Shown here one piece after another: positions 46,407-61,582 of a DNA stretch of 64,000 nucleotides (the stretch's first letter is position 1; every line of letters begins with the position of its first letter). The stretch comes from Hyphomicrobiales bacterium. Lineage in GTDB: Bacteria; Pseudomonadota; Alphaproteobacteria; Rhizobiales; Rhizobiaceae. The position numbers were made by a program, and so were the translations under genes. The stretch spans positions 1 through 64,000 of the forward strand of contig UCMT01000022.1 of NCBI GenBank assembly GCA_900473795.1, written 5' to 3'. The notes below the pieces were generated by a model, which was given only the letters and a program-made list of their open reading frames with translations, was not told the origin of the DNA and made no database searches.

Positions 46407-47102
46407 CTAATTATCGGCTTCGCGCAACCGGTACCCGACACCGGTCTCGGTGGTGATATATTGCGGTTGGTCGGGACTCGCCTCGATCTTCTGGCGAAGC
46501 TGGCGGACATAGACGCGCAGATACTGCACGTCTGCGGCATTGCCCCAGACCTGTTTCAGCAGGAACTGGTGGGTCAGCACCTTCCCGGCGTACTGCACCA
46601 GAATGCGCAGGATATCGTATTCCTTCGGAGACAGCTTCACCTCGCGGCCATCGACCCTGACGATACGCTTGACGAGATCGACGGAGAGGCCGCCGGTCTG
46701 GAACAGCGGCTTTTCGCCCTGCTGCTGCAGCCGGTGGCGCAGCGCGACGCGAATGCGCGCCACCAGCTCATTCATGCCGAAAGGTTTCGTCACATAATCG
46801 TCGGCACCGAGCTCCAGTGCCTTGACGATCCCCGCTTCGTCGGTGCGGCTCGACAGGATGATGATCGGCAGCGTCAGGCCCTCGTCTCGCCAGCCGCTCA
46901 ACAGCTCATGGCCGGGAATGTCGGGCAGGCCGAGATCGAGAAGGATGAGGTCGGGCAGCTCTGTTCTGACCATATCCTGCGCGGACCGGCCATTACCCGC
47001 TTCGCTGACCGCATAGTCCTGTGTCGCCAAACCAACGCGCAACAGCCGGCGAATGGGCGGCTCGTCGTCGACGACGAGAATCTTGACGGCCGAAAGGGTC
47101 AT
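46407..47102 (-). CDS. kdpE: response regulator KdpE
   Basis: A 231-aa OmpR/PhoB-type regulator. Receiver with acidic pocket ILVVDDEPPIRRLLRVGL and phospho-acceptor Asp56 in LILLDLGLPDIPG; the switch region has LELGADDYVTKPFGMNELVA. The C-terminal winged helix ends VWGNAADVQYLRVYVRQLRQ. It is phosphorylated by KdpD under K+ limitation and activates the kdp operon. It overlaps kdpD by 4 bp and lies at the operon end. Confidence 0.97.
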   Translation of the reverse strand: MTLSAVKILVVDDEPPIRRLLRVGLATQDYAVSEAGNGRSAQDMVRTELPDLILLDLGLPDIPGHELLSGWRDEGLTLPIIILSSRTDEAGIVKALELGADDYVTKPFGMNELVARIRVALRHRLQQQGEKPLFQTGGLSVDLVKRIVRVDGREVKLSPKEYDILRILVQYAGKVLTHQFLLKQVWGNAADVQYLRVYVRQLRQKIEASPDQPQYITTETGVGYRLREADN

Positions 47103-49804
47103 GGCATGTCCTTCAGATTGGGCGCATCCGGCAAGAGTGGCAGGCTGACGGTAAAGACGGCGCCGGAGCGATCCGTCCTGTTTTCGGCGGCGATGGTTCC
47201 GCCCATCGCTTCGACGAAGCCCCGGCAGATCGACAGGCCGAGTCCGGTTCCCGCCCGGACGTGGTCCCCTTTGCGCACCCGGTAGAACGTGTCGAAGACA
47301 CGCTCGAGATCGGTGGGCGGAATGCCCGGCCCCTCGTCGGAAATCCTGAGAAGAATACGCGCACCGCCGGTATGCGCCTGTACGGCGACGGTCGAGGCCT
47401 CCGGCGCATATTTGGCGGCGTTGTCGAGCAGGTTGAACAACACCTGTTCCAACAACACCGGATCGACCTTGACCATCGGCAGTTCCGCCGGAACCCGGAC
47501 ATCGACCGGGTGATCAGCCATGATCTTTCGCGCCCGGCGCAACGCGCTGCCGACGATGTCGCCGATATAGTGGAAGGCCACATTCGGCTCCATGGCGCCG
47601 GATTCGATCCGTGTCATGTCGAGCAGATTGACGATGAAGCGGTTCAGCCGTTCCGATTCGTCGGTCACTGTCGTCAACAGCTCGACGCGGTCTTGTTCCG
47701 GCAACGCCGACTGATAGTCGCGCAAGGTGCCGGCGGCCCCCATGATGGCGGCGAGCGGCGTCTTTAGGTCGTGAGAGATCGAGGTCAGCAGCGCCGAACG
47801 GAGTTTTCCGGCCTCTTCGGCCAGCCGCGCGGCGTCGATGTCGGCCACAAGCTGGACACGCTCGATGGCAAGTGCCGCCTGATCGGCAAGCGCATCGAGC
47901 AGACGCTGCTGTTCCGGAGTGAGCAGCGGTCCCTGCCGGTCATCATCAAGGCCAATGACGCCGACAGCAGTGCGCGCCGTGCGCAGGGGCACGTAGAGCC
48001 GCTTGGCCCCCGGCAAGGTATCGGCGCCACGGCCGGCAGCACGATTGTGCTCCCAGGCCCAGCGTGCGGCAGCGATATCGGCATCGTCCAGCGTATCGTC
48101 CGGAGGATAGCCGGCTTTGACCGCAATCGTGCCGTCTTCCGGCAGAAGCAGCACGACGCGCACCTTCAGCATGGAGGCGAGCTGAAATGCCGTTGCCCAG
48201 AGTACGTCGTCCAGCGTGCCGGTGCCCGCCAGCTTCTTGCTGAACAGATAGAGGTCTTCAGTGGTGCGGGCGCGCAAGCGCGCCGCCGCCGCCTGGCGCT
48301 GCACGCTCGCTGTCAGATTGCTCGCAATAACCGCAACCACAAAGAAAAAGCCGAATGCAACCACGCTTTCCGGGTCACTGATGACAAACGTATAAAGCGG
48401 GTGAAGGAAGAAGAAATTCAAGGCGAGCGCGCCGATAACGCTGGCATAGAGGGCCGGCTTCAACCCTTCCGTTACCGCCGTCGTCAGAACCGCCATCAGA
48501 AAGACCAGCGCGATGTTGCGCACATCGAGCGACTGGTCGAGCAGAAAGCCCACGCCCAGCGCGCAGCCGACATAGAGGGTCGCAAGCATATAGGGCCAAA
48601 TCTTCAACGGCACCGGTGTCGGCACCGTCTTGACGCCTGTTGCGGCCGGATCGCCCTCGCGGTCCCCAGCAAGGACATGGACGCTGATATCGCCTGCACG
48701 GCGGATAAGCGTGTCGGTCACCGAACCCTGGAGCCACAGCCGCCAGCGAGATTTTTTGGGGCTGCCGACGATGATATGCGTAACATTGCTCGCCGCTGCG
48801 TGCCGCACGATTTCCTCGGCCTCATCGGAGCCCGGCCGGGTGATCGCCTCACCGCCCAAATGTTCCGCGAGACGCAAGGTCGCGGCGATCCTGTCGCGCG
48901 CGGCCTCAGGCAAATGCACGGATCGCGCCGTTTCGACATAGAGCGCCACCCAAGGCGCACGCAAGCGGTCAGCGAGGCGGGCGGCATAGCGCACCAGCGA
49001 AGCGCAGCGCGGATGATCGTCGATGCAGACAAGCACCCGGTCGCCGGCCGCCCAGGGACCCGATATGGCATGCGCCTGCATATGGGTCAGCAACTGCTCG
49101 TCAACCCGTTGTGCCGTGCGGCGAAGCGCGAGCTCACGCAGGGCCGTCAGGTTTCCGGGCGAAAAATAGTTCTCGATCGCCCGCTGCGCCGTGTTCGGCA
49201 CATAGACCTTGCCGTCATGCAGCCGCTTGATCAGGTCGTCGGGCGTGAGGTCGATGATCTCGACATCGTCGGCGCGATCGATGATCGAATCGGGAACCGT
49301 TTCGCGCACCCGGATACGGGTGATCTGGGCGACGACGTCGTTGAGGCTTTCGACATGCTGGATATTGAGCGTCGAGTAAACATCGATGCCGCGCGCGAGA
49401 AGCTCCTGCACATCCAGATAGCGTTTGGGATGGCGGCTGCCCGGCGCGTTGGTGTGCGCCAACTCGTCGACGAGGACGAGGGCGGGACGCCGGGCAATGA
49501 TGGCGTCAATGTCCATTTCATCGAGAGTGCGGCCCTTGTAGTCGATCATCCGACGCGGGATCACCTCCAGGCCGTTGACCAGTGCCTGTGTTTCCCTGCG
49601 GCCGTGCGTCTCGACGACGCCGACGACGACATCGACGCCATCCGCTTTGCGCGCATGGGCGGACGTCAGCATTTCATAGGTCTTGCCGACGCCGGGAGCC
49701 GCTCCCAGAAAGATCTTCAGGCGGCCGCGCGTTTCCCGTTCCGCCCGCTCCAAGAGCGCGTCCGGTGATGGCCTGCCATCCATGTCGCGGCTGTCATCTC
49801 GCAT
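47099..49804 (-). CDS. kdpD: sensor histidine kinase KdpD
   Basis: A 901-aa sensor. N-terminal KdpD domain with Walker A-like FLGAAPGVGKTYEMLTSAHA, then VLVDELAHTNAPGSRHPKRY, a UspA-like domain (about residues 245-370), four membrane helices (about 395-495), a GAF domain, and the kinase core. The phospho-acceptor is His678 in SISHDLKTPLAAIMGA. The ATP site has FNLLDNAAKYAPEAST and GTGLGLSICRGFVEAMGG. It senses K+ limitation and controls KdpE. The start at 49804 is preferred over 49843, which adds unrelated residues. Confidence 0.96.
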   Translation of the reverse strand: MRDDSRDMDGRPSPDALLERAERETRGRLKIFLGAAPGVGKTYEMLTSAHARKADGVDVVVGVVETHGRRETQALVNGLEVIPRRMIDYKGRTLDEMDIDAIIARRPALVLVDELAHTNAPGSRHPKRYLDVQELLARGIDVYSTLNIQHVESLNDVVAQITRIRVRETVPDSIIDRADDVEIIDLTPDDLIKRLHDGKVYVPNTAQRAIENYFSPGNLTALRELALRRTAQRVDEQLLTHMQAHAISGPWAAGDRVLVCIDDHPRCASLVRYAARLADRLRAPWVALYVETARSVHLPEAARDRIAATLRLAEHLGGEAITRPGSDEAEEIVRHAAASNVTHIIVGSPKKSRWRLWLQGSVTDTLIRRAGDISVHVLAGDREGDPAATGVKTVPTPVPLKIWPYMLATLYVGCALGVGFLLDQSLDVRNIALVFLMAVLTTAVTEGLKPALYASVIGALALNFFFLHPLYTFVISDPESVVAFGFFFVVAVIASNLTASVQRQAAAARLRARTTEDLYLFSKKLAGTGTLDDVLWATAFQLASMLKVRVVLLLPEDGTIAVKAGYPPDDTLDDADIAAARWAWEHNRAAGRGADTLPGAKRLYVPLRTARTAVGVIGLDDDRQGPLLTPEQQRLLDALADQAALAIERVQLVADIDAARLAEEAGKLRSALLTSISHDLKTPLAAIMGAAGTLRDYQSALPEQDRVELLTTVTDESERLNRFIVNLLDMTRIESGAMEPNVAFHYIGDIVGSALRRARKIMADHPVDVRVPAELPMVKVDPVLLEQVLFNLLDNAAKYAPEASTVAVQAHTGGARILLRISDEGPGIPPTDLERVFDTFYRVRKGDHVRAGTGLGLSICRGFVEAMGGTIAAENRTDRSGAVFTVSLPLLPDAPNLKDMP

Positions 49805-49867
49805 GAAACGTGTTCTTCCTCCTCCGGCAGCGGATAACGGCATTTTACCGCTTCCGTTTCAGCCGTG

Positions 49868-50440
49868 TCAGGGCGTCGTTACAGCTTTATCAAGCGCCAT
49901 GTTGAGCGCCAAGACATTGACCACCGGTTCCCCGAGAACACCCAGTTCGCGCGCATCGATGGCCTGATCGACCAGCATGCGGACCTCACCTTCATCCATG
50001 CCACGAGCCCTGGCGACACGCGGCACCTGGAAATAGGTGGCCTCGGGCGTGATGTCTGGATCAAGGCCGCTGCCCGAGGCAGTGACCAGATCCATTGGCA
50101 CGGCGGCGGCCGGGTTGGTGGTTTTCAACGCTTCGGCTTCCGTCTTGATCCGGTCAAGCAGCTTCGGATTGGTCGGGCCGAGATTGGAGCCGCTGGATGC
50201 GGCGGCATTGTAGCCATCTCCGGCAGCGGAGGGGCGACCATGGAAATAGCTATCTCCCGTAAAGACCTGGCCGATCAGCGTCGAGCCAACGACGGCTCCA
50301 TCCTTTTCCACGAGGCTGCCATTGGCTTGATGCGGGAACAGCGCCTGGGCGATGCTCGTCATGCCGAGCGGATATGCAAGGCCCGTGATGAGCGTGATGG
50401 CGACGATCATGACAAGGGCCGGTCGCAGTTGTTTCAGCAT
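49868..50440 (-). CDS. kdpC: potassium-transporting ATPase KdpC subunit
   Basis: A 190-aa assembly and ATP-affinity subunit. One N-terminal helix [20 protein letters not shown], then a periplasmic domain with the conserved [20 protein letters not shown] and [20 protein letters not shown] motifs. C-terminal [20 protein letters not shown] is typical. It lies 11 bp after kdpB. Confidence 0.96.
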
Positions 50441-50451
50441 GGGTGAATTCC

Positions 50452-52506
50452 TTAAACGAGGCCAAGGGCGGTGATGGCCACATCGATGGCCTTGATGCCG
50501 ATGAACGGCACGATGACGCCGCCGAGGCCGTAGACGAGCAGGTTGCGCGACAGCAGCGCACCGGCGCCGACGGCACGATACTTCACCCCCTTCAGCGACA
50601 GCGGGATCAGCGCCACGATGACCAGCGCATTGAAGATAATGGCCGACAGGATGGCGCTTTGCGGTGAAGAGAGCCCCATGATGTTCAGTGTCGACAGCTG
50701 CGGATAGAAAGCCAGGAACATCGCCGGGATGATCGCGAAATATTTGGCGATGTCGTTGGCGATCGAGAAGGTGGTCAGCGCGCCACGGGTCATCAGGAGT
50801 TGCTTGCCGATCTCGACGATCTCGATCAGTTTCGTGGGATCGGAATCCAGATCAACCATGTTGCCGGCTTCGCGGGCCGCCACCGTGCCGGTGTTCATCG
50901 CCACGCCGACATCGGCCTGGGCGAGTGCAGGGGCGTCGTTGGTGCCATCGCCACACATGGCAACGAGCTTGCCCTTCGCCTGTTCCTCGCGGATCAGCGA
51001 CAGCTTGTTTTCAGGCGTCGCCTGGGCAAGGAAGTCATCCACGCCGGCTTCGGCAGCGATCGCCGCTGCCGTCATCGGATTGTCGCCGGTAATCATCACG
51101 GTGCGGATGCCCATCCGGCGTAGTTCGGCGAAACGCTCGCGAATGCCGCCCTTGACGATGTCCTTGAGATGCACGACACCCATCAAGCGGCCGTCGCGAA
51201 CGACGGCGAGCGGCGTGCCGCCGGACTTGGCGATCTCGTCGGCAATGGCCTGGATTTCGCGCACGCTTTCCGGGTGCGCCGAGGCAGCCCCGCCGACATA
51301 GCTCAGCACCGCGTCCACCGCACCCTTGCGGATCGACGATCCCTCCACATCGACGCCGCTCATCCGGCTCTGTGCCGTGAAGCGAACGAAGCTCGCGTGC
51401 AACTGCGCCATGTCGCGCGCACGGATAGCGTACTTTTCCTTGGCGAGCACGACGATCGACCGGCCTTCCGGCGTTTCGTCGGCTAAGGATGCGAGCTGCG
51501 CAGCATCGGCCAGATCCCGTTCCGAGACACCGGCGATCGGCCGCAGCTCGGTTGCCTGACGGTTGCCGAGCGTGATGGTGCCCGTCTTGTCGAGCAGCAG
51601 CGTATCGATATCGCCTGCGGCTTCGACGGCGCGACCCGACATGGCGAGCACGTTGAAGCGGACGAGGCGATCCATGCCGGCAATGCCGATGGCCGAGAGA
51701 AGCGCGCCGATCGTCGTCGGGATCAGCGTCACGAACAAAGCGACGAGAACGATCACGGGAATAGCGCCGCCAGCATAGGTGGCGAAGCTCGGGATCGTCG
51801 CCACGGCAAGCACGAAGATCAGCGTCATGCCGGCGAGAAGGATGTTGAGCGCGATCTCGTTCGGGGTCTTCTGGCGTTCTGCCCCTTCAACCAGCGCGAT
51901 CATCCGGTCGATGAAGGTGGAACCGGCGGCGGCGCTGATGCGCACCCGGATCCAGTCCGAGAGCACCTGCGTGCCGCCGGTGACGGCCGAGCGGTCGCCG
52001 CCGGATTCGCGGATGACCGGAGCGGATTCGCCGGTGATCGCCGCCTCGTTGACGGAGGCGACGCCCTCGATGACTTCGCCGTCCGACGGAATGATGTCGC
52101 CGGCCTCGACGAGCACGACGTCACCGACCTTGAGGCTGGTGCCGGGAACCATCTTGTAGCTCTTGAGATCGCTGCCAGTCAGCAGCTTCGCCTGCGTTTC
52201 GGTGCGCGTCTTGCGCAGTGAATCCGCCTGCGCCTTGCCGCGGCCTTCGGCGACGGCTTCGGCGAAATTGGCAAAAAGCACGGTGAACCAAAGCCAGATA
52301 TTCAGCTGCAGCGAAAAGCCGAGGCCTTCGCCGCCGGTGACGAGATCACGCAGGAACAGAATAGTCGTCAGCGTCGAGACGACGGCGACGACGAACATCA
52401 CCGGGTTTTTCGCGAGCGTACGCGGGTTGAGCTTGGCAAAAGCCGAGCCAATCGCGGGAACGAGGATGCGCGAGTCGATGAGGCTCGCAGATTTGGACTG
52501 GCTCAT
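50452..52506 (-). CDS. kdpB: potassium-transporting ATPase KdpB subunit
   Basis: A 684-aa P-type ATPase catalytic subunit. The phosphorylated Asp306 is in [20 protein letters not shown]. The actuator motif is [20 protein letters not shown], the hinge [20 protein letters not shown], and membrane helices frame both. The start at 52506 fits family length; longer in-frame starts at 52539 or 52656 lack a ribosome site. KdpB energises K+ uptake through KdpA. Confidence 0.97.
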
Positions 52507-52553
52507 GAGAGAACGCCTGTTTCCTTTGTTTTGTGACATCACGGCGACTGCGG

Positions 52554-52721
52554 TCAGCCGCGGAACAATTCGGTGAAGGCAAGGGCAAGACCGGTGGCCA
52601 TCAGGAGGACCAGCATCATCGCCAGGACGATATCGGTAGCCGGCGTTTCCCGACACCCTCGCGGCAGGCCGCCGCCGCGAGGGTGAAGAAACTTTCCGAA
52701 CGTTATCAGGGAACGATCCAT
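52554..52721 (-). CDS. small membrane peptide between kdpA and kdpB (unrecognised)
   Basis: A 55-codon frame starting [14 protein letters not shown], with a Gly/Arg/Cys-rich middle, then one predicted membrane helix [20 protein letters not shown] and the end TELFRG. It begins 12 bp past the kdpA stop with aagg about 10 nt upstream, and ends 48 bp before kdpB. A 12-bp hairpin lies in the middle of the frame. The hydrophobic helix and in-operon location favour a real Kdp-associated peptide, but the GC-rich hairpin could be an inserted repeat, and no family is recognised. Treat as probable rather than sure. Confidence 0.4.
52654..52685. repeat. strong hairpin inside the kdpA-kdpB spacer
   Basis: CACCCTCGCGGC (52654-52665) and GCCGCGAGGGTG (52674-52685) pair perfectly for 12 bp around an 8-nt loop. 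No T-run follows, so it is an mRNA-processing or stabilising element, or a palindromic insertion, not a terminator. Confidence 0.7.
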
Positions 52722-52732
52722 GGTCAGCGGCC

Positions 52733-54436
52733 TTAGAACGTCTGGCCGGAGATCATTGCCAGGTGCTCGGCGATCGGCCCGAGCGCAAGCGCCGGGAAGA
52801 AGGTGAGACCGCCGACAATCAGGATGACGCCGCAGAGCAGGCCGACGAACAGCGAACCGTCGGTCGGGAAGGTGCCGGCCGAAGCGGGCACCGTCTTCTT
52901 CATCACCAGCGAACCCGCGATGGCGAGCGCCGGGATGATCACCAGGAAACGGCCCATCAGCATCGCGATGCCGATGGTAATATTGTACCAGGGCGTGTTG
53001 CCGGTAAGCCCGCCGAACGCCGATCCGTTATTGGCGGCAGCAGAGGTGTAGGCATAGAGGATTTCCGAAAAGCCGTGCGGACCGGGATTGCCGATCGAAG
53101 CGACGCCTGTCGGCAGGATGACGGCGATTGCGGTGAAGACCAGCATGGCCGTCGGCAGGCAGAGGATGGCGAGAACAGCCATCTTGACCTCCTTGGCCTC
53201 GATCTTCTTGCCGAGATATTCCGGTGTGCGCCCGACCATCAGGCCGGCGACAAAGACCGTAAGAACGACGAACAGAAGGATGCCGTAGAAACCGGCGCCG
53301 ACGCCGCCGACGACGACTTCGCCAAGCTCCATGTTGATCAGCGGGATGAGGCCGCCCAACGCCGTGAACGAGCCATGCATGGCATTGACCGCACCGCAGG
53401 AGGCAGCGGTGGTGACGACAGCAAACAGCGACGACAGCGCGATGCCGAAGCGGACTTCCTTGCCTTCCATGTTGCCGCCCTCGATACCCATGGCATGAAC
53501 CAGCGGATTGCCGGCGACTTCCGCCCAATAGGTCACGACGACGCCGATGACGAAGAGCACGCCCATCGTCGCGAAGATCGCCCAGCCCTGGCCCTCATTG
53601 CCGACCATGCGGCCGAAGACGTTGGTGAGACCCGCGCCGAGCGCGAAGATCGTGACCATCTGGATGAGATTGGAGATCGCATCCGGATTTTCGAACGGAT
53701 GAGCCGAGTTGGCATTGAAGAAGCCGCCGCCATTCGTGCCAAGCATCTTGATGGCCAACTGCGAGGCGACCGGACCAAGTGCGATCGTCTGCTGCGCCCC
53801 CTCGAGCGTCGTGGCCGTCACATAGGCGCCCAAGGTCTGGGGAACGCCGAGATAGACGTAGACAAGGGTCAGAATGATGCAGGCCGGGAGCAGAATGTAG
53901 AGCGTGGTTCGGGTCATATCGACCCAGAAATTGCCGATCGACCTGGCCGAAGCGCGCGCAAAACCGCGAATGAGCGCGACGGCGATGGCAATGCCGGTCG
54001 CGGCCGAGGCGAAGTTCTGCACCGTAAGACCAGCCATCTGCACGAGATAGGACATCGTGCTTTCGCCGCCGTAGTTCTGCCAGTTCGTATTGGTCATGAA
54101 GCTGGCGGCCGTGTTGAAGGAAAGCTCCGGTCCAACCGCATTCATGCCGGCAGGATTGAAGGGCAGCAAGCCTTGAAAGCGCTGCAAGAGATACAGAAGA
54201 AGGAAGCCGGCGAGATTGAACAGCAGCAGCGCGAAGGCATAGCTCGTCCAATGCTGCTCTTCCTTTTCATGGGTTCCCGCCAGCCGGTAAAGGCCGCGTT
54301 CGACCGGCACGAGGAGCGGCGACAACGGCGTGCGCTCGCCGTTGAAAACACGCGTCATATAGGCGCCGAGCGGCTTGACGAGCAAAATGACGATGCCGCA
54401 GAAGACGAGGATCTGGATCCATCCATTGAGTGTCAT
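52733..54436 (-). CDS. kdpA: potassium-transporting ATPase KdpA subunit
   Basis: A 567-aa channel-like subunit with about ten helices. It starts [20 protein letters not shown]. Selectivity-filter-like loops are seen in [60 protein letters not shown], and [20 protein letters not shown]. It binds and conducts K+ coupled to KdpB. The ATG at 54436 gives the normal family length; 23 bp separate it from kdpF. Confidence 0.97.
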
Positions 54437-54459
54437 GACTGACTTTCCAAGCCCGGCGG

Positions 54460-54549
54460 TTAGAACCGTTCGGGACGAATGAGGGCATAGGTCAGGTAGG
54501 CGAGCAGAAACACGGTCACGCCGGCGCCAAGAACATAATCGACAAGCAT
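54460..54549 (-). CDS. kdpF: KdpF subunit
   Basis: A 29-aa single-helix peptide reading [20 protein letters not shown] then YALIRPERF. The pattern of one helix ending in Y-A-L-x-R-P-E-x-F is diagnostic for KdpF, which stabilises the KdpABC complex. It starts at 54549 and is placed directly before kdpA, as expected. Confidence 0.92.
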
Positions 54550-54565
54550 CTTCCGATCCTTCCAA

Positions 54566-54649
54566 CTAAAGCCTGTCGCATGCCAGGGTGTAGGCGAACG
54601 ACAGTGCGAAAAACAAAACGCCGACGCCGATCAAGACGATATCCAGCAT
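54566..54649 (-). CDS. 27-aa membrane peptide at the head of the kdp operon (ACDRL type)
   Basis: Reads MLDIVLIGVGVLFFALSFAY then TLACDRL, one membrane helix with the ending ACDRL. Peptides with this ending occur upstream of kdpF in other proteobacterial kdp operons; their role is not defined. It ends 16 bp before the kdpF start, and is the first frame of the operon. Recognition is from the C-terminal motif and position. Confidence 0.75.
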   Translation of the reverse strand: MLDIVLIGVGVLFFALSFAYTLACDRL

Positions 54650-55123
54650 CGATGCAGGCTCCCTTTGTTGAATTTCAGGTTTCCCTCTCCTTCGAGGGAG
54701 GTGACGCGAAGCGGCCCTGCCGAGCTTGCTCAGCACAAGATCCGAGGCCTGAATTCCACGCTGACTATGCTGCCGAACCGCATAAGGGTTCGAGACGGGC
54801 CGCCACGGAGAGAAATAAAAATCTCATAGGATTCTGGGGCGTTTGAGTGAGACGACCGAGCTGGTCGCATCGCCCCGGGCGGCGCCCCGATGGCACCAAG
54901 ACACGTCACGCTTGATCGTCGTTGAATAGATCGCTGCTCACGAACGTCTTAGAAACATTACAACCACACTTTCATAATGCATCACCCGGAAATACTCGCC
55001 AGTGTTGTATTGTGTTTCTCCATTTCTACACCGCTCCTGCAAAACAGCGCGCGCACGCCCATCCGGCTTGACTTTTGGGGTGGCCAAATCCAGTGATCAT
55101 CTGTGCATTGTTGGGGAATTTGC
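54650..55123. other. divergent promoter region, kdp operon and FecR-TPR gene
   Basis: 474 bp without a gene. It must contain the leftward kdp promoter and KdpE site and the rightward promoter of the FecR-domain gene. It includes a short hairpin ccctc/gaggg near 54685-54702 and an AT-richer patch around 54940-55020. I could not identify a KdpE box by eye. Confidence 0.55.
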
Positions 55124-58100
55124 ATGAAATACGCATCCGCGGGGGTTGGGTATGCGTTGGGAGCGCTCTGTCTCGCCATGCCGGCGCAGGCTGACCCCTT
55201 GCCGCGCCTGCTCCCCGCCGCCGGCTCGGTCATCGCCCGCAAGTCGGGCGAGGAAGTGCGTTTCGTCGATGTCTCCAACTGGCGCTATGTCGACCTCAAG
55301 CAGGATCTTTTGACCGGCGACGTGCTGCGCACGAATGCCACAGGCCAACTGGCCGTCCTGTTTTCCGACCGCACCCAGGTCCGTCTCGGCCGCAATACGT
55401 CACTTCTCGTCAAGCAGATGGGCGGCAGCGGCGACACCGGGCTCGAACTGCAGTCCGGTACGATCTGGGCCCGCGCCGAGCGCGGCGGCGACGGCGTATC
55501 CATCGACACCCCTGCCGCAACAGCCGCCATTCGCGGCACCGACTGGACGATGACGGTCGGCGCCGACGGCAAGACCTCGCTGATCGTGCTGGAAGGGCTG
55601 GTCGAACTGTCAAATGCGCAGGGTTCAGTAACGGTCAGTCAAGGGGAAGGCGCCGTCGCGGCGATTGGTCAGGCGCCCTCGAAGATCATCATTGCCAAGC
55701 CGAAAGACCGGGAGCAGATGCTGTTCAGCCTGCAACTGCGGACCGCCTTCCAGTGGATGCCGGCAACGCCACTGATCGTGCCGCAGATGCGCAGCGAGCG
55801 ACGCCGCATCGAGGCCGAGGAGGCTGGCGTCCGCTCGGCAGAAGATTGGCTGACCCTGTCGGAAATCTATCTCGCGCTCGATGGAAAGCAGAAGGCAAAA
55901 GCGGCTCTCGATGAGGCGCGCCTCCGAGGCCTGCGCGGCACCGAGCTTGCGCGCGCCGATCTGATCGAGGCACTGATCGCCGGCTCCGAGAACCGTTATA
56001 ACGATGCAGCGAGGCTGTTTGAAAGGGCGAGGCCTGGGCTTGACGCAAAGCGCCGTGCGATCGCTGCCTACGGCGGTTACTTCGCCCGGTCTCTTGCCGA
56101 CCCCAACCACGTCGAAGAACCGCCACAGGCGGCCAATGGCGGTTATGCCGCTATGGCGAGGGCCTGGACCGCCGGTTTCCGCGAGGACATCCGTGCAGCA
56201 CTTGCGGTCATCAAGGAGGGCGAGCGCAATACGCCCAACGATCCGACCCTGCCCGCCATGCGCGCCCAACTCGGCATTCTGCTCGCCGATGAAAAGGAAG
56301 TTGTCGACGGGTTTGAACGCGCCTTGGCGATCGACCCGAATGATCCCACCGGGCTGGAAGCGCGGGCGCACTACAAACTCCACATCTTGCACGACCGGCA
56401 GGGCGCGCTTGACGATCTGAACCGTGCTCTGAAAACGGCGCCGGGCTCCAGCACCATCTGGAGTACGATCGGCGGCGTGCAATCCGATCGGGATGCCAAC
56501 CGCGAGGCGGAGGCTGCCTACAAGAAAGCGATCGAACTCGACCCGCGCGACCCCACCGACCACGCCAATCTTGCTTTTCTATATCTCGATGAAATGCGCA
56601 TGGCGGAAGCCAAGCGCGAGATCGATGAGGCGAGGAAGCTAGATCCGTCCTTCGACATCGCCTTGGTGGCCCGCGGCCGGTATCACCTGCAGACCGGCGA
56701 GATGGAAAAGGCGGTGGAAGACCTGTTGGCCGGATCGACCTCCAATCCAGGCTATTCCCAGGCGCAATTGCTGCTCGCCGCCGCTCACTATGAAAAGGGC
56801 GATCGCCTGCCTGCGGCCCAGGCGCTCGACAATGCCGAGCGGCTCGATCCCGACGATCCCATTGTCCCGGTCGTTCGCACCGCGATCGCCATCGATGAAT
56901 ATGATTCCGATGCCGCGATCCGCAACGCCCAGGAGATCATGCGCCGGACGCGCGCTCGGGGCGGCGACTACGCACCGCTCGGTGCCAACCAGCAGGCCGG
57001 TTCGACGCTCAACGACGCCTTCCGCCTGCAGGGGCTCGATGCCTGGGGGCAATATTACGGCGACGTGGTGTTCGATCCCTTTACGGGGTCAAGCTATATC
57101 GACCAGGCGGTGCGCGGCAGCGTCAATCCGTTCACCAGCGAAGACGGCTATGACGGCAAGATCATCGAAAACAGCTTCAATGACACGTCGTTCTCGTCCT
57201 ACATTCAAGGGTTGCTGATTGAGCCCCATATGCTCGCCAGCCGCGATCGGACCGCCAATCTCGTCCAGAGACCGTTCGTGGAAGCATCAATCGGCGGCGG
57301 CCTCGTCTCAGGCGACGGCGAACTTGGATATATTGCCGAAGCAGAGCTTCGCGGATTGGTTAATTCGCCCTTCCCTGTCAGCGTCTATGGCGCACTGCAA
57401 TGGGAAACCACCCCGCAGGGCCGCGCGCTTGACGATATTACCGGCAACTTTTCAAACGAGACGGACCTTCTCGGCGGTATCGGCTATCTGACAGCAACGC
57501 CGACGCCTGACGACCGGTTCGTGTTCTACACGAACTACGAGCGCAACGATCTTTCCCTGGACGCAAGTGGCGTAACATTACTATCACCGTTTCCGGTTCC
57601 GGGGCTTGTAGACCGCACAGTGGACGTGTCTGCCAACACGCTGAACATCGGCGCTGGTTGGAGCCACACTATTGCCTACCAGAATATCGTCAATGCCGGC
57701 CTCTTTTATTCATCCAGTGAAGCGCGTGTTCAGAACAACAGCGCCTCCCTGAGGATTCCCCTAATCGAGGAAAGCTCCGAGCAGGAACAAATCAGCGTCG
57801 TCGCCGCCGTTGGCCATATCTATGGGGAGGGCGATCTGACCTTTCGCTACGGGTTGGAGGGTGGCGCGCTGAAGCTGAAATCGCACGTGACAACGAGCGA
57901 CATCCGGCCTCCAGTCACATTTATCGACACGACGTCCAGCGAGACGTCGCCTCTCGGCCGGGCCTATGCCTCCGTGCTTGCCGAATTGACGCCTTCCCTC
58001 AAAGCAGAGGCGTCCCTCTTCGCCACCTATCTGGAAAGCGGCGGCGCCAGCATCGAGAGACTGGAGCCCCGCGTCGGTCTCGCCTGGAACCCCTTCGAGG

Positions 58101-58771
58101 GGCAATGGCTGAGGGTCGCCTATTTGCGCGAAGGCGCTGCCTCGGACACACCCACGCTCGCTCCAATCGGAGTGCTCGGCGTCCAGTCAAACCAGCTCGA
58201 TCTCGCACTGGACGGCAAGGTGGACACCTTCGCGTTTCGGTGGGACGCGGAATGGACCGATCGCTTTTTCACGTCGGTCGATGTCCAGCACCAGGAATTC
58301 GATTTCATAACGGCGACGTTGCCCTATACGGTTGATACGATCGCGATCGATGAGGGGCGGCTGGACAGGGCAAGCTTGACGGCAAATTTCTGGCTTGGGC
58401 ACGGCTTCGGGCTTTCTGCCACCATCGCCGCCAACGAGTCCAGCGGCCACGGCGCCGTGGTCGGAGACACCTTCGACAGCGCCTTGCCGTTCGTTCCGGA
58501 TACGGCGGGCCGCATTGCCCTGACGTGGGTCAACACCAACAGTATCCGCGCCACGCTTGCTGCGAACTACACCGGCGACCGCCTCGACAATTCGGGAAAC
58601 CGCCTTGAAGACTACTGGACACTTGACGCCGGGGTGAAATGGGAATCCTTCGACAAGCGCATCGAGGTCGATCTCGCCGCCTTCAACCTGCTGGATGAGG
58701 ATTTTGACATCGCGTTTGCCCTTCCCGGTTGGGGGCCAACCTTCAAGGGAACGGTGAAAGTGCGCTTCTGA
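55124..58771 (+). CDS. FecR-domain, TPR-repeat and outer-membrane barrel protein
   Basis: A 1215-aa secreted protein. Signal peptide KYASAGVGYALGALCLAMPA with cleavage near AQA/DP. FecR-type domain at about residues 35-185 (DVLRTNATGQLAVLFSDRTQ, AAIRGTDWTMTVG, SLIVLEGLVELSN). TPR repeats at about 235-610 (AAYKKAIELDPRDPTDHANL, AREIDEARKLDP-like units). The last 550 residues look like an outer-membrane beta-barrel (alternating strands such as FVFYTNYERNDLSLDAS) ending in the aromatic KVRF. No TonB box or plug was seen. It overlaps the downstream cyclase gene by 1 nt, so the two are co-expressed. The combined architecture is unusual. Confidence 0.85.
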   Translation: MKYASAGVGYALGALCLAMPAQADPLPRLLPAAGSVIARKSGEEVRFVDVSNWRYVDLKQDLLTGDVLRTNATGQLAVLFSDRTQVRLGRNTSLLVKQMGGSGDTGLELQSGTIWARAERGGDGVSIDTPAATAAIRGTDWTMTVGADGKTSLIVLEGLVELSNAQGSVTVSQGEGAVAAIGQAPSKIIIAKPKDREQMLFSLQLRTAFQWMPATPLIVPQMRSERRRIEAEEAGVRSAEDWLTLSEIYLALDGKQKAKAALDEARLRGLRGTELARADLIEALIAGSENRYNDAARLFERARPGLDAKRRAIAAYGGYFARSLADPNHVEEPPQAANGGYAAMARAWTAGFREDIRAALAVIKEGERNTPNDPTLPAMRAQLGILLADEKEVVDGFERALAIDPNDPTGLEARAHYKLHILHDRQGALDDLNRALKTAPGSSTIWSTIGGVQSDRDANREAEAAYKKAIELDPRDPTDHANLAFLYLDEMRMAEAKREIDEARKLDPSFDIALVARGRYHLQTGEMEKAVEDLLAGSTSNPGYSQAQLLLAAAHYEKGDRLPAAQALDNAERLDPDDPIVPVVRTAIAIDEYDSDAAIRNAQEIMRRTRARGGDYAPLGANQQAGSTLNDAFRLQGLDAWGQYYGDVVFDPFTGSSYIDQAVRGSVNPFTSEDGYDGKIIENSFNDTSFSSYIQGLLIEPHMLASRDRTANLVQRPFVEASIGGGLVSGDGELGYIAEAELRGLVNSPFPVSVYGALQWETTPQGRALDDITGNFSNETDLLGGIGYLTATPTPDDRFVFYTNYERNDLSLDASGVTLLSPFPVPGLVDRTVDVSANTLNIGAGWSHTIAYQNIVNAGLFYSSSEARVQNNSASLRIPLIEESSEQEQISVVAAVGHIYGEGDLTFRYGLEGGALKLKSHVTTSDIRPPVTFIDTTSSETSPLGRAYASVLAELTPSLKAEASLFATYLESGGASIERLEPRVGLAWNPFEGQWLRVAYLREGAASDTPTLAPIGVLGVQSNQLDLALDGKVDTFAFRWDAEWTDRFFTSVDVQHQEFDFITATLPYTVDTIAIDEGRLDRASLTANFWLGHGFGLSATIAANESSGHGAVVGDTFDSALPFVPDTAGRIALTWVNTNSIRATLAANYTGDRLDNSGNRLEDYWTLDAGVKWESFDKRIEVDLAAFNLLDEDFDIAFALPGWGPTFKGTVKVRF

Positions 58772-60762
58772 TGGCGATACTCAAAGCGCTTCACCGACAC
58801 ACAGGCGGCCCTTCGACCGAAACAGCCGCCACCCGCATTCGGCGGCGGCGCACCCACTTGGGCCTGCTCGCCGCCCTCACCGTCGTTGCCCTTGCCCTCG
58901 CCTCGCTGACCTCCCCCTTCTCGCTCGTCGAACTGCGCAGCTTCGACTATCTCTCCACCTTCGCACCGCCGCCGCTGCCGAAGGACGGGCCGGTGATCGT
59001 CGCGATCGACGAGCCGTCCATGGCGCAGATCGGCAGCCAGTGGCCCTGGCCGCGCGCGCTGCATGCAAGGCTGATCGAAGCGCTGCGCGGGGCCGGGGCG
59101 AAAGCCATCGGCGTCGATATCATCTTTGCCGAACCTTCGGTCGCTCCGGAAAACGATGCTGCCCTTGCTGCGGCGGTGGGCCCGGATGTGGTGCTGGCGG
59201 GCGACGAGACGCTGATCGAGACGCCGCAGGCCGATCAATTCGTGCGGACGGAACCGCTGGCCCAACTTATCGAGCGTGGCGCGAAAACCGGAATCGCATC
59301 GGTGCAGTTAAGCGGCGACGGTACGTTTCGGCAGGTGCCTGCCTATGCGGACGGCTTTGCCGCGCAACTGGCGCAGACCGCCGGACGGCAACAAAAGGCG
59401 CGGTCCGGCCCCGCACTGCTCCAGATGTTCGGGCCGGCGCGAGCCTATCCGACCGTGTCGTATTACCAGGCGCTCGACCCCGGCCAGTTCCTGCCGGAGG
59501 GTTTCTTTCGAAACCGCGTCGTCATCGTCGGGCTCAGCCTGCAGAATGCACCAACCCTTCAGGCCGGCGGCGCGGACGCGTTTGCGACGCCATTTACGGT
59601 GCACACCGGCCAATTGATCTCCGGCGCCGAAATCCAGGCGACGATCTTCGACAACATCACCGAAGGCCTGTTCATCGAAAGGGCCGGGCGGCCGATCGTG
59701 ATTGCCGCGATTGCCTTTGGTGCCTTGCTGGCGGCCGGCATGGCCTTTCGTTCGACCGGGTGGCTGACGGCGGCCCTCAGCGCCCTGGTCCTGCTCCTTT
59801 TTGCGGCTGCGAGCTATGCGCTGCTGAGGCTCGGCCACGTCTTCGTGTCGCCGGTGGGTCCGCTGCTATCCTATGTCTGCGTCGTTGCGGGTCAGACCGG
59901 GCTCGATTATGCCGCGGAGCGGCGCAGTCGCCGGGACATCACGCGCGCCTTTTCGCGCTATCTTTCTCCGGCGCTGGTCGAGCGTCTCGCCAACGATCCC
60001 TCGCAGTTGAAACTTGGCGGCGAGCGGCGGACGCTGACCATTCTTTTCTGCGACGTGCGCGGCTTCACCACGATTTCCGAGACACTGAAGGATGATCCAG
60101 AGCAACTCACGACCCTGATCAACCGGCTGCTCACGCCGCTTTCGGAAATCGTCCTCGAAAGCGGCGGTACGATCGACAAATTCATCGGCGACTGCCTGAT
60201 GGCTTTCTGGAACGCGCCGCTCGACGATCCGGACCATGCCAGCCATGCGGTGGGTGCTGCGCTACACACGCTGGCGGCGATCGAGACGCTGAATGCCGAA
60301 CTGCGCCGGGAAGCAGAAGGCGAAGGCACGACGCCGCATGTGCTGAAGATCGGCATCGGCATCAACACCGGCGATTGCGTCGTCGGCAATATGGGCTCGT
60401 CGCGCCGCTTCGACTATTCGGTGCTCGGCGATGCCGTCAATCTCGCCTCGCGGCTCGAAGGTGAATCGAAGAATTACGGCGTGCCGTTGCTGATCGGCGA
60501 GCAGACGGCAAGACTGGCCGCGGCCGATTTCACCAGCGCCGAACTCGACAGCATCACCGTCAAGGGCCGCACCGCGCTGTCGCCGATCTTCACCATCCTG
60601 CAGCCCTCCCCCACACAGCAGGCTCTGGAGAACCACAAGCAGCTGCTTGCAGCCAAGTACGCCGGAACACTGCACGCGCGGGATCCGACCCTTGATCAAC
60701 TGGAACGGGAAATTCCGCAGCTTAGCGGCTACTACCGCCTGCTGCGATCGCGCCTTACTTGA
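58771..60762 (+). CDS. CHASE2-domain adenylate cyclase (class III)
   Basis: A 663-aa signalling enzyme. N-terminal helix LGLLAALTVVALALASLTSP, a periplasmic CHASE2 domain (about 60-300; VIVAIDEPSMAQIGSQWPWP, GAKAIGVDIIFAEPS, RNRVVIVGLSLQN), three membrane helices (about 305-385), then the cyclase. Metal Asp residues are in TILFCDVRGFTTISE and KFIGDCLMAFWNAPLDDPDH; the Lys before IGD suggests ATP as substrate; transition-state motif is DYSVLGDAVNLASRLEGESK. It overlaps the FecR-TPR-barrel gene stop by 1 nt (TGATG), pointing to a functional pair. Confidence 0.93.
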   Translation: MAILKALHRHTGGPSTETAATRIRRRRTHLGLLAALTVVALALASLTSPFSLVELRSFDYLSTFAPPPLPKDGPVIVAIDEPSMAQIGSQWPWPRALHARLIEALRGAGAKAIGVDIIFAEPSVAPENDAALAAAVGPDVVLAGDETLIETPQADQFVRTEPLAQLIERGAKTGIASVQLSGDGTFRQVPAYADGFAAQLAQTAGRQQKARSGPALLQMFGPARAYPTVSYYQALDPGQFLPEGFFRNRVVIVGLSLQNAPTLQAGGADAFATPFTVHTGQLISGAEIQATIFDNITEGLFIERAGRPIVIAAIAFGALLAAGMAFRSTGWLTAALSALVLLLFAAASYALLRLGHVFVSPVGPLLSYVCVVAGQTGLDYAAERRSRRDITRAFSRYLSPALVERLANDPSQLKLGGERRTLTILFCDVRGFTTISETLKDDPEQLTTLINRLLTPLSEIVLESGGTIDKFIGDCLMAFWNAPLDDPDHASHAVGAALHTLAAIETLNAELRREAEGEGTTPHVLKIGIGINTGDCVVGNMGSSRRFDYSVLGDAVNLASRLEGESKNYGVPLLIGEQTARLAAADFTSAELDSITVKGRTALSPIFTILQPSPTQQALENHKQLLAAKYAGTLHARDPTLDQLEREIPQLSGYYRLLRSRLT

Positions 60763-60779: not shown

Positions 60780-61250
60780 TCAGGACCGCATCGGAACAAA
60801 CATGCCCAGTTTTATGTCTTTGAGCACGACATTCGTGTGGATGCGCTTGATCTGCGGGTTCTGCGACATGATCTGTGCGGTGATTTCATCATATTGGCCA
60901 ACGTCTTGTGCCGTGATGATGGCGACAAGGTCTACGGAACCGGTCACATAATAGACCTGCTGTATGTGGTCTTGCTTGTCGACCCAGACGCGGAATTTCG
61001 AAAGCGCATCGTAGTTTTCGCGCTCGATCTCCATTCCCGCTATGAACGTCATCGGATTTCCGGCAACCTTTCGATCGACCAGAGCGATTTCCGCTGAAAT
61101 GATCCCTTCCTCGCGCATCCGCTTCAGGCGGCGTTGAACAGCAGACGCTGAAAGGCCGATCATCTCGCCGACCGCCTCCGCCTTGATCTGACAATCGCGC
61201 TGCACGATCTCAAGGATGTTTCGGTCGAATTGATCCAGTGGTTCCGTCAT
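60780..61250 (-). CDS. Lrp/AsnC family transcriptional regulator
   Basis: A 156-aa amino-acid-responsive regulator. Helix-turn-helix LDQFDRNILEIVQRDCQIKA, then EMIGLSASAVQRRLKRMREE. The RAM effector domain includes AGMEIERENYDALSKFRVWV and VYYVTGSVDLVAIITAQD. It diverges from the homoserine-dehydrogenase-like gene, so it probably controls it in response to an amino acid. Start at 61250 follows the family; the longer frame to 61322 adds unconserved residues. Confidence 0.94.
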   Translation of the reverse strand: MTEPLDQFDRNILEIVQRDCQIKAEAVGEMIGLSASAVQRRLKRMREEGIISAEIALVDRKVAGNPMTFIAGMEIERENYDALSKFRVWVDKQDHIQQVYYVTGSVDLVAIITAQDVGQYDEITAQIMSQNPQIKRIHTNVVLKDIKLGMFVPMRS

Positions 61251-61582
61251 CTGCTCCTCGTCGCATGCGCATAAACCCTTAAACCGGAGTGATTTAAGGG
61301 AAAGGATTGTGCACGGCTTCAACGTGCGACCGCATCCCTGGCACGTCCAAAGGACTGAGTAGGGCTGTAGTGATTTGCCGCAGCCTATCCTAGATCAGCG
61401 CGGCGATTCATCAAAAATTGACCGAGGTGCGCCTCCTCTCCGCGTCTTCTGCTCAATTTTATATGCCATCGGGCTTTTCGGCATGAAGCAGGCAGAATGA
61501 CCAATTCTTTGGCCATTTAGCACCCTTCAACCCGCCGCTGTCGTCGTCCACCATTCGCCATATCGCTCAGAGAGGAAATGGC
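61251..61582. other. divergent regulatory region, lrp and dehydrogenase genes
   Basis: 332 bp without a gene. The right half is AT-richer and contains tgaccaattctttggccat (61498-61516), an imperfect palindrome (CCAA/TTGG) that is a candidate Lrp-family site before the dehydrogenase gene. Binding is conjecture. Confidence 0.4.

Follow-up and report, generated by a model that had tools for sequence, protein, structure and literature searches.

NsrA and CyaK orthologs in a Rhizobiaceae genome: a predicted TonB-receptor-type barrel without a recognisable plug, encoded next to a CHASE2 adenylate cyclase

How might a signal met at the outer membrane be handed on to a cyclase in the inner membrane? 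The question is raised by two adjoining genes on the forward strand of a 64,000-nucleotide stretch of DNA from a Hyphomicrobiales bacterium of the family Rhizobiaceae (assembly GCA_900473795.1, contig UCMT01000022.1, positions 1 to 64,000; hereafter the window). Gene 1 (55124–58771; 1215 residues, ATG start) is homologous over its full length to nsrA of the alfalfa-symbiotic Sinorhizobium meliloti 1021 (61.6% protein identity over 1214 columns). Gene 2 (58771–60762; 663 residues) lies directly 3′ of it, encodes a CHASE2 domain with a class III cyclase domain, and shares 66.8% identity over 642 columns with CyaK of the same strain. Judged by sequence, the pair is orthologous to the NsrA–CyaK system, which is already known: in the S. 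meliloti pSymB record CP140934.1 nsrA is annotated as 'signal perception protein NrsA' and is followed by cyaK with the same one-nucleotide overlap, which rules out that the pair is a new system. A plasmid collection contains 86 records that match gene 1 at E≤1e-20, 67 of them from Sinorhizobium; 40 of the 86 were listed, CP140934.1 among them. Excerpts of PMC7529298 describe NsrA as an outer-membrane receptor whose cognate cyclases are CyaK for signal 1 and CyaD1/D2 for signal 1′. They report that both NsrA and CyaK are required in S. meliloti for the cyclic AMP (cAMP)-dependent reporter response to a plant signal, and present the ribosomal protein uL2 as a candidate for signal 1, requiring nsrA and cyaK. 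NsrA is described likewise in passages of PMC13001267, PMC10463352 and PMC9927233.

We favour, with a probability of roughly three in four, the reading that NsrA and CyaK form a receptor pair which relays an outside signal. The TonB-receptor-like barrel of NsrA would bind the signal in the outer membrane (in S. meliloti the published candidate is a protein), and the resulting change would pass through a periplasmic solenoid of tetratricopeptide repeats (TPR) to the N-terminal FecR domain. This domain would then engage the CHASE2 domain of the inner-membrane CyaK and raise cAMP synthesis, with cAMP acting through Clr, of which a counterpart is present in this genome. Such a relay is the best account of the locus because it agrees with the anatomy of the two proteins and with the published genetics of the S. 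meliloti ortholog. Its observed basis is the domain make-up of both proteins (in part predicted), their orthology to NsrA and CyaK, the conserved coupling of the two genes and the presence of the pathway counterparts. An initial annotation, made from the letters of the window, had proposed an outer-membrane sensor or scaffold that contacts the cyclase and passes a signal across the periplasm. Given the published descriptions of NsrA and CyaK, this is close to the model for the S. meliloti ortholog, but the identity of the pair and the TonB-dependent-receptor fold of the barrel had not been spotted.

The gene 1 product starts with a signal peptide (residues 1–23, 55124–55192; N-terminus MKYASAGVGYALGALCLAMPAQA), read by eye from the translation, with an AQA/DP cut of which A23 is invariant across 17 aligned sequences. 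It is followed by a FecR domain (PF04773, residues 66–161, 55319–55606; Pfam E 1.4e-15, six-frame search E 1.1e-16), the single FecR-type region listed by Pfam for this protein, and by a TPR-type helical solenoid (residues ~219–612, 55778–56959), for which six TPR models pass their own cut-offs and helices are predicted at mature positions 196–589. A conserved linker (residues ~613–717, 56960–57274), with many invariant residues and partly low model confidence, connects the solenoid to a predicted 22-strand outer-membrane barrel of the TonB-dependent-receptor type (residues ~718–1214, 57275–58765), assigned from the model and its fold matches. The last residue is a phenylalanine. Pfam, the by-eye signal peptide and the structural model thus agree with the initial annotation on a secreted FecR, TPR and barrel protein of 1215 residues with a terminal Phe. 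A FecR anti-sigma regulator, located in the inner membrane and carrying a cytoplasmic sigma-binding region, was considered for gene 1 and rejected in view of the signal peptide at its start and the predicted barrel at its end.

The structure of mature NsrA (residues 24–1215) was predicted with AlphaFold2 from an alignment of 47 sequences, with a mean predicted local distance difference test score (pLDDT) of 81.6 and a predicted template-modelling score (pTM) of 0.75. The model contains the strands of the FecR part, ~23 TPR-like solenoid helices, the linker and the C-terminal strands. The FecR region is the weakest part, with pLDDT values below 50 for mature residues 1–54, then of ~50–80, and a second low stretch at 166–178. 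The barrel blocks mostly score 80–94 and include 22 strands of at least 8 residues between mature residues 695 and 1191, as counted from the strand listing, so that the barrel proposed earlier is recovered by structure prediction. All 50 Foldseek matches shown are TonB-dependent receptors or models thereof, with FptA on top (E 7e-16) and FecA among them, and the barrel can be aligned with BtuB (3m8b) with a Z-score of 22.0 and a root-mean-square deviation (rmsd) of 3.1 for 423 residues. Profile matches are weak: OMP_b-brl_3 in Pfam has an E-value of 0.047, under its cut-off, and the TonB-dependent-receptor match in NCBIfam (residues 1130–1208, E 7e-4) lies far under its cut-off. Pfam lists 18 families for gene 1 at E≤1, a level at which the HMMER filters already drop weak matches, and none of them is a plug; the initial annotation had likewise seen no plug. 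Judged by its sequence, NsrA does not qualify as a classical TonB-dependent receptor with an N-terminal plug, although the 22 strands of that class are predicted. The model adds to earlier knowledge, by prediction, a TonB-dependent-receptor fold without a recognisable Pfam plug; the linker at 56960–57274 may substitute for the plug by sitting inside the barrel. For S. meliloti NsrA, an excerpt of PMC7529298 gives residues 600–1200 as the barrel portion.

The stop codon of nsrA and the start codon of cyaK share one base in the sequence TGATG (58769–58773; TGA 58769–58771, ATG 58771–58773), as had been noted earlier, and the cyclase domains seen at that time are matched by Pfam. The CHASE2 domain (PF05226, residues 38–315, 58882–59715; E 2.1e-40) is predicted to lie after a single N-terminal helix and before three more long ones, and the class III catalytic domain (Guanylate_cyc, PF00211, residues 421–602, 60031–60576; E 9.7e-22) follows. 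The presumed catalytic residues D428, K470, D474, D554, N557 and R561, to which we assign the roles that we take such residues to have in class III cyclases, are invariant in 42 sequences. In the cyclase model (mean pLDDT 83.5, pTM 0.58) a helix at residues 19–44 precedes the CHASE2 region, three long helices (307–395) and the catalytic domain. It superimposes on Pseudomonas aeruginosa CyaB (3r5g) with a Z-score of 24.2 and an rmsd of 2.6 for 189 residues; the structure matches of this model span mainly residues 373–650 and are silent on the CHASE2 fold. By its domains gene 2 encodes a CHASE2 class III adenylate cyclase, for which cAMP production is predicted.

The coupling of the two genes is conserved in relatives. 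In a survey of 61 genomes, with at most 11 candidates scored per genome and the table read by the author, a clear NsrA-type protein is present in 23 of the 26 genomes of the genus (own genome included), in 2 of 11 from other genera of the family and in 1 of 24 from other families of the order. One further genome (G002) has an NsrA-type fragment at a contig end, and in three (G014, G019, G036) the protein is split into frames. The splits in G014 (L064) and G019 (L058), whose assemblies are 78% and 87% complete, are likely sequencing errors. A CHASE2 cyclase match adjoins 24 of the 27 NsrA-type regions examined, and the remaining three are additional copies, two from G009 and one from G015; one of the three has ~670 bases of contig left downstream. 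These extra NsrA-like genes (L061, L062, L063) share 37–40% identity with the window protein over the main part, and L063 lies in two frames; inspection by eye showed a frame for a LuxR-type regulator upstream of L061 and no such frame beside L062. In a scan of named genomes (the best 80 of 355 relatives), supplemented by two S. meliloti plasmid loci, the next gene downstream of nsrA in the same orientation is the cyclase at all 82 loci, one of them cut by a contig end, and 77 have an in-frame ATG that overlaps the nsrA stop by one base. Among the names carried by the matching records are Rhizobium, Sinorhizobium/Ensifer, Neorhizobium, Pararhizobium, Pseudorhizobium, Ciceribacter, Gellertiella, Xaviernesmea and Mesorhizobium. 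The adjacency that the initial annotation had read from this genome is conserved at these loci.

Within the pair the modules are conserved to different degrees. The median identity to the window over 90 homolog rows is 75% for FecR, 54% and 63% for the two parts of the TPR solenoid and 48% for the barrel; in CyaK it is 66% (CHASE2) and 73% (cyclase domain). In one homolog, L057 (genome G021), sequence windows over the first 200 residues are 85–91% identical to the window protein and later ones 22–53%. Its FecR domain is 92% identical to the nearest CyaK-linked copies and its CyaK is of the usual type, whereas its TPR solenoid is 70% identical to L061 and L062, the copies without CyaK, and at most 46% to every other row. 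From these identities L057 is a chimera, combining the usual FecR domain and CyaK with a TPR and barrel part of the type found in the CyaK-less copies. In a second homolog, L072, the barrel groups with those of L073 and L093 (Shimodaira–Hasegawa-like approximate likelihood-ratio support, SH-aLRT, 100) and CyaK groups with that of the window (99). The exchange in L072 may begin inside the TPR part, because the TPR tree also groups L072 with L073 and L093 (99).

Clade tests were made on quick trees for the CyaK and FecR data and for part of the TPR data, with groups that were named after the trees had been seen, so that the p values are flattered. The approximately unbiased (AU) test rejects the group L072+L073+L093, which has a support of 100 in the barrel tree, on the CyaK data (p 3e-5), and the placement of L057 in its CyaK clade on the TPR data (p 1e-69). 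On the CyaK data neither L053+L092 (p 0.053) nor L080+L091+L088+L054 (p 0.17) is rejected, and the same holds on the TPR data for L072 placed with the clade of the window (p 0.06). Exchange of the sensor half is thus supported by trees for L057 and L072; L053, L080 and L071 look similar in the identity tables, and for these the tests run do not establish an exchange. Taken together, the sequences suggest that the sensor half is exchangeable while the coupling FecR domain stays with the cyclase.

Correlations between homolog distances, calculated for 84 rows after removal of short, cut or duplicate cyclases (L103, L130, L142, L146, L147), point in the same direction. They are 0.88 for FecR–CHASE2 and for FecR–cyclase domain, 0.80 for FecR–TPR, 0.76 for FecR–barrel, 0.78 for TPR–CHASE2 and 0.75 for barrel–CHASE2. 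FecR tracks CHASE2 and the cyclase domain more closely than it does the TPR and barrel parts of NsrA, although in the DNA the barrel part adjoins cyaK and the FecR part lies farthest from it. In 500 of 500 row resamples the FecR–CHASE2 value exceeds those of TPR–CHASE2 and barrel–CHASE2, and in 95% that of FecR–TPR. This suggests, at the level of sequence divergence, that the FecR domain evolves more like a part of the cyclase machinery and the TPR and barrel parts more like an exchangeable sensor.

A linkage of FecR and CHASE2 is also found outside the NsrA family. Three matches to CHASE2 and three to FecR are found both in this genome and in S. meliloti 4H41, and at every place the FecR match has a CHASE2 match within ~4 kb. 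In a sample of 100 genomes of the phylum, own genome included, the best 150 rows were taken for each domain. A FecR match lies within 6 kb of a listed CHASE2 match in 44 of its 150 rows, from 37 genomes and 19 family codes (counted by eye), where ~1.0 would be expected by chance for random places with every genome taken as 3.5 Mb; a listed CHASE2 match is present in the genomes of 117 of the 150 FecR rows. Sixty regions of the sample were fetched, and the frames were read in 26 with a linked pair: 23 pairs are on the same strand, one of them doubtful since the same frame was taken for both (L214), and 3 on opposite strands. Ten chosen CHASE2 frames have a cyclase (3), histidine kinase (4), GGDEF (1) or EAL (2) output. 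The ten FecR frames inspected comprise one NsrA-type protein, three with LysM, one with weak fn3 and Ig-like matches, and five in which nothing further scores above cut-off. Two FecR–CHASE2 arrangements are already in print (excerpts of PMC5192318 and PMC9239204), and no statement of a general link was found in the open-licence literature searched. The wider proposal to which this leads is finely balanced: FecR and CHASE2 may constitute a widespread envelope relay in Proteobacteria, in which a neighbouring FecR protein, tethered by LysM or a barrel, would be the periplasmic partner of a large subset of CHASE2 receptors with any output (cAMP, cyclic di-GMP synthesis or breakdown, histidine kinase). 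NsrA–CyaK would be the version with a TonB-receptor-type barrel that has no recognisable plug, in which the sensor half (TPR and barrel, or barrel alone) is swapped between strains like a cartridge and the FecR–CyaK connection is kept.

The other components of the S. meliloti pathway have counterparts in this genome. Compared with S. meliloti 4H41, identities are 75% for Clr, 68% for CyaD1, 61% for the FecR protein beside cyaD1, 77% for a second CHASE2 cyclase, possibly CyaD2, and 52% for its FecR neighbour; a partial match of 53% over 140 residues concerns a 4H41 open reading frame taken as the smc02178 position. The names of the S. meliloti chromosomal genes were assigned from gene order and excerpts of PMC5498481, without an annotated record. 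A locus at G000:C66:190000-206000 (L066) of the window's own genome resembles the clr–cyaD1–FecR gene region of S. meliloti. The third CHASE2 cyclase is located at G000:C24:1-9000 (L065), with a FecR gene adjoining on the opposite strand (77% and 52% to the S. meliloti pair). For NifH and NodC nothing above cut-off was found in this genome, with weak sub-cut-off matches for both, as in most control genomes.

Several observations weigh against the proposed relay. The excess of the FecR–CHASE2 correlation over that of FecR–TPR is borderline, with 4.6% of the 500 resamples giving a difference of zero or less, and after removal of seven divergent or swap-like rows the values are 0.89 for FecR–CHASE2, 0.87 for FecR–TPR, 0.86 for FecR–cyclase and 0.82 for FecR–barrel, so that the effect is small. 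Because the FecR–cyclase correlation (0.88) equals that of FecR–CHASE2, the correlation indicates that FecR travels with CyaK, and not that it has an interface with CHASE2. A proof of contact by co-evolution is accordingly backed only in part, the value for the cyclase domain being as high and the excess shrinking on removal of rows. The FecR tree (171 columns) rejects no clade tested, including L057 with the CyaK-less copies (AU p 0.79), and in the phylum sample 106 of the 150 CHASE2 rows are without a listed FecR match within 6 kb. According to excerpts of PMC7529298, signal 1′, which acts in S. meliloti through CyaD1/D2, not encoded with nsrA, also needs NsrA. Finally, because NodC and NifH are under cut-off, a role in the legume nodule cannot simply be transferred to this genome.

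The requirement for signal 1′ would be explained by a common entry port, as supposed if NsrA is mainly a gated channel or importer, through which the signal or a fragment of it enters the periplasm to be sensed by CHASE2, with FecR and TPR only positioning the proteins. The barrel fold is indeed that of import receptors. We consider this unlikely, however, given that Pfam lists no plug domain for NsrA, that the signal proposed in print is an entire ribosomal protein, and that a mere port needs no FecR domain tracking CyaK while the sensor half swaps. It is far less probable still that the genes are only co-expressed and act separately, NsrA as an adhesin or scaffold and CyaK in response to another cue. 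The three NsrA-like copies in two relatives without an adjoining CHASE2 match (one with ~670 bases of contig left) could be understood in this way, but the adjacency in all 82 loci, the FecR–CHASE2 linkage across the phylum sample and the joint requirement for NsrA and CyaK published for S. meliloti all argue for joint action. The barrel–TPR–FecR–CHASE2 relay is thus preferred; within it, a contact of FecR with CHASE2, the inward course of the signal and, for this species, the ligand are inferences.

The neighbourhood of the pair contains, on the reverse strand at 47099–54565 and divergent from nsrA, frames that resemble a kdp potassium-transport operon (by eye from translations), with a gap of ~560 bases between the listed kdp-like frame and nsrA. 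The stretch 54566–55123 has no match to the Clr motif GTNNCNNNNGNNAC, taken from an excerpt of PMC10127613, with one mismatch or fewer, against ~2.5 expected at the frequency in the window as a whole; regulation of nsrA by Clr was rejected on this ground. Downstream, a Lrp/AsnC-like regulator frame (by eye; 60780–61322, reverse strand) is convergent with cyaK at a distance of 17 bases.

While the pair itself is known, the predicted TonB-receptor fold without a Pfam plug, the exchange of the sensor module, supported by trees in two cases, and the FecR–CHASE2 linkage in the phylum sample are added here. The ligand recognition of CHASE2 was called unknown in 2016 (excerpt of PMC5192318); if FecR proteins are partners of many CHASE2 receptors, those receptors gain a testable upstream component. 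The natural exchanges of the NsrA sensor half are ready-made chimeras for separating ligand specificity from cyclase coupling, and the occurrence of the pair alongside counterparts of Clr and CyaD1, where NodC and NifH stay under cut-off, suggests a possible use beyond nodule control.

In the iron-citrate signalling system FecA–FecR–FecI, a barrel of the TonB-receptor fold and a periplasmic FecR domain pass a signal inward. The system described here resembles it in the barrel fold, FecA being among the Foldseek matches, and in the periplasmic FecR domain; it differs in having FecR within the outer-membrane protein itself, in the lack of a listed plug family, and in the inner-membrane partner, a cyclase in place of an anti-sigma factor. 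The closest relative is NsrA–CyaK from pSymB of S. meliloti, with the same gene order, one-nucleotide overlap and domains and identities of 62% and 67%, although the barrels are only ~51% identical and NodC and NifH are under cut-off in this genome. A Burkholderia operon described in excerpts of PMC5192318 likewise has a FecR-domain protein adjoining a CHASE2 receptor, but there a peptidoglycan-binding LysM domain replaces the TPR and barrel parts, and the output is a histidine kinase. The Campylobacterota clusters with a CHASE2 adenylate cyclase, as outlined in passages of PMC9239204, in contrast have separate genes for a FecR outer-membrane protein and a TPR protein, together with a cAMP phosphodiesterase.

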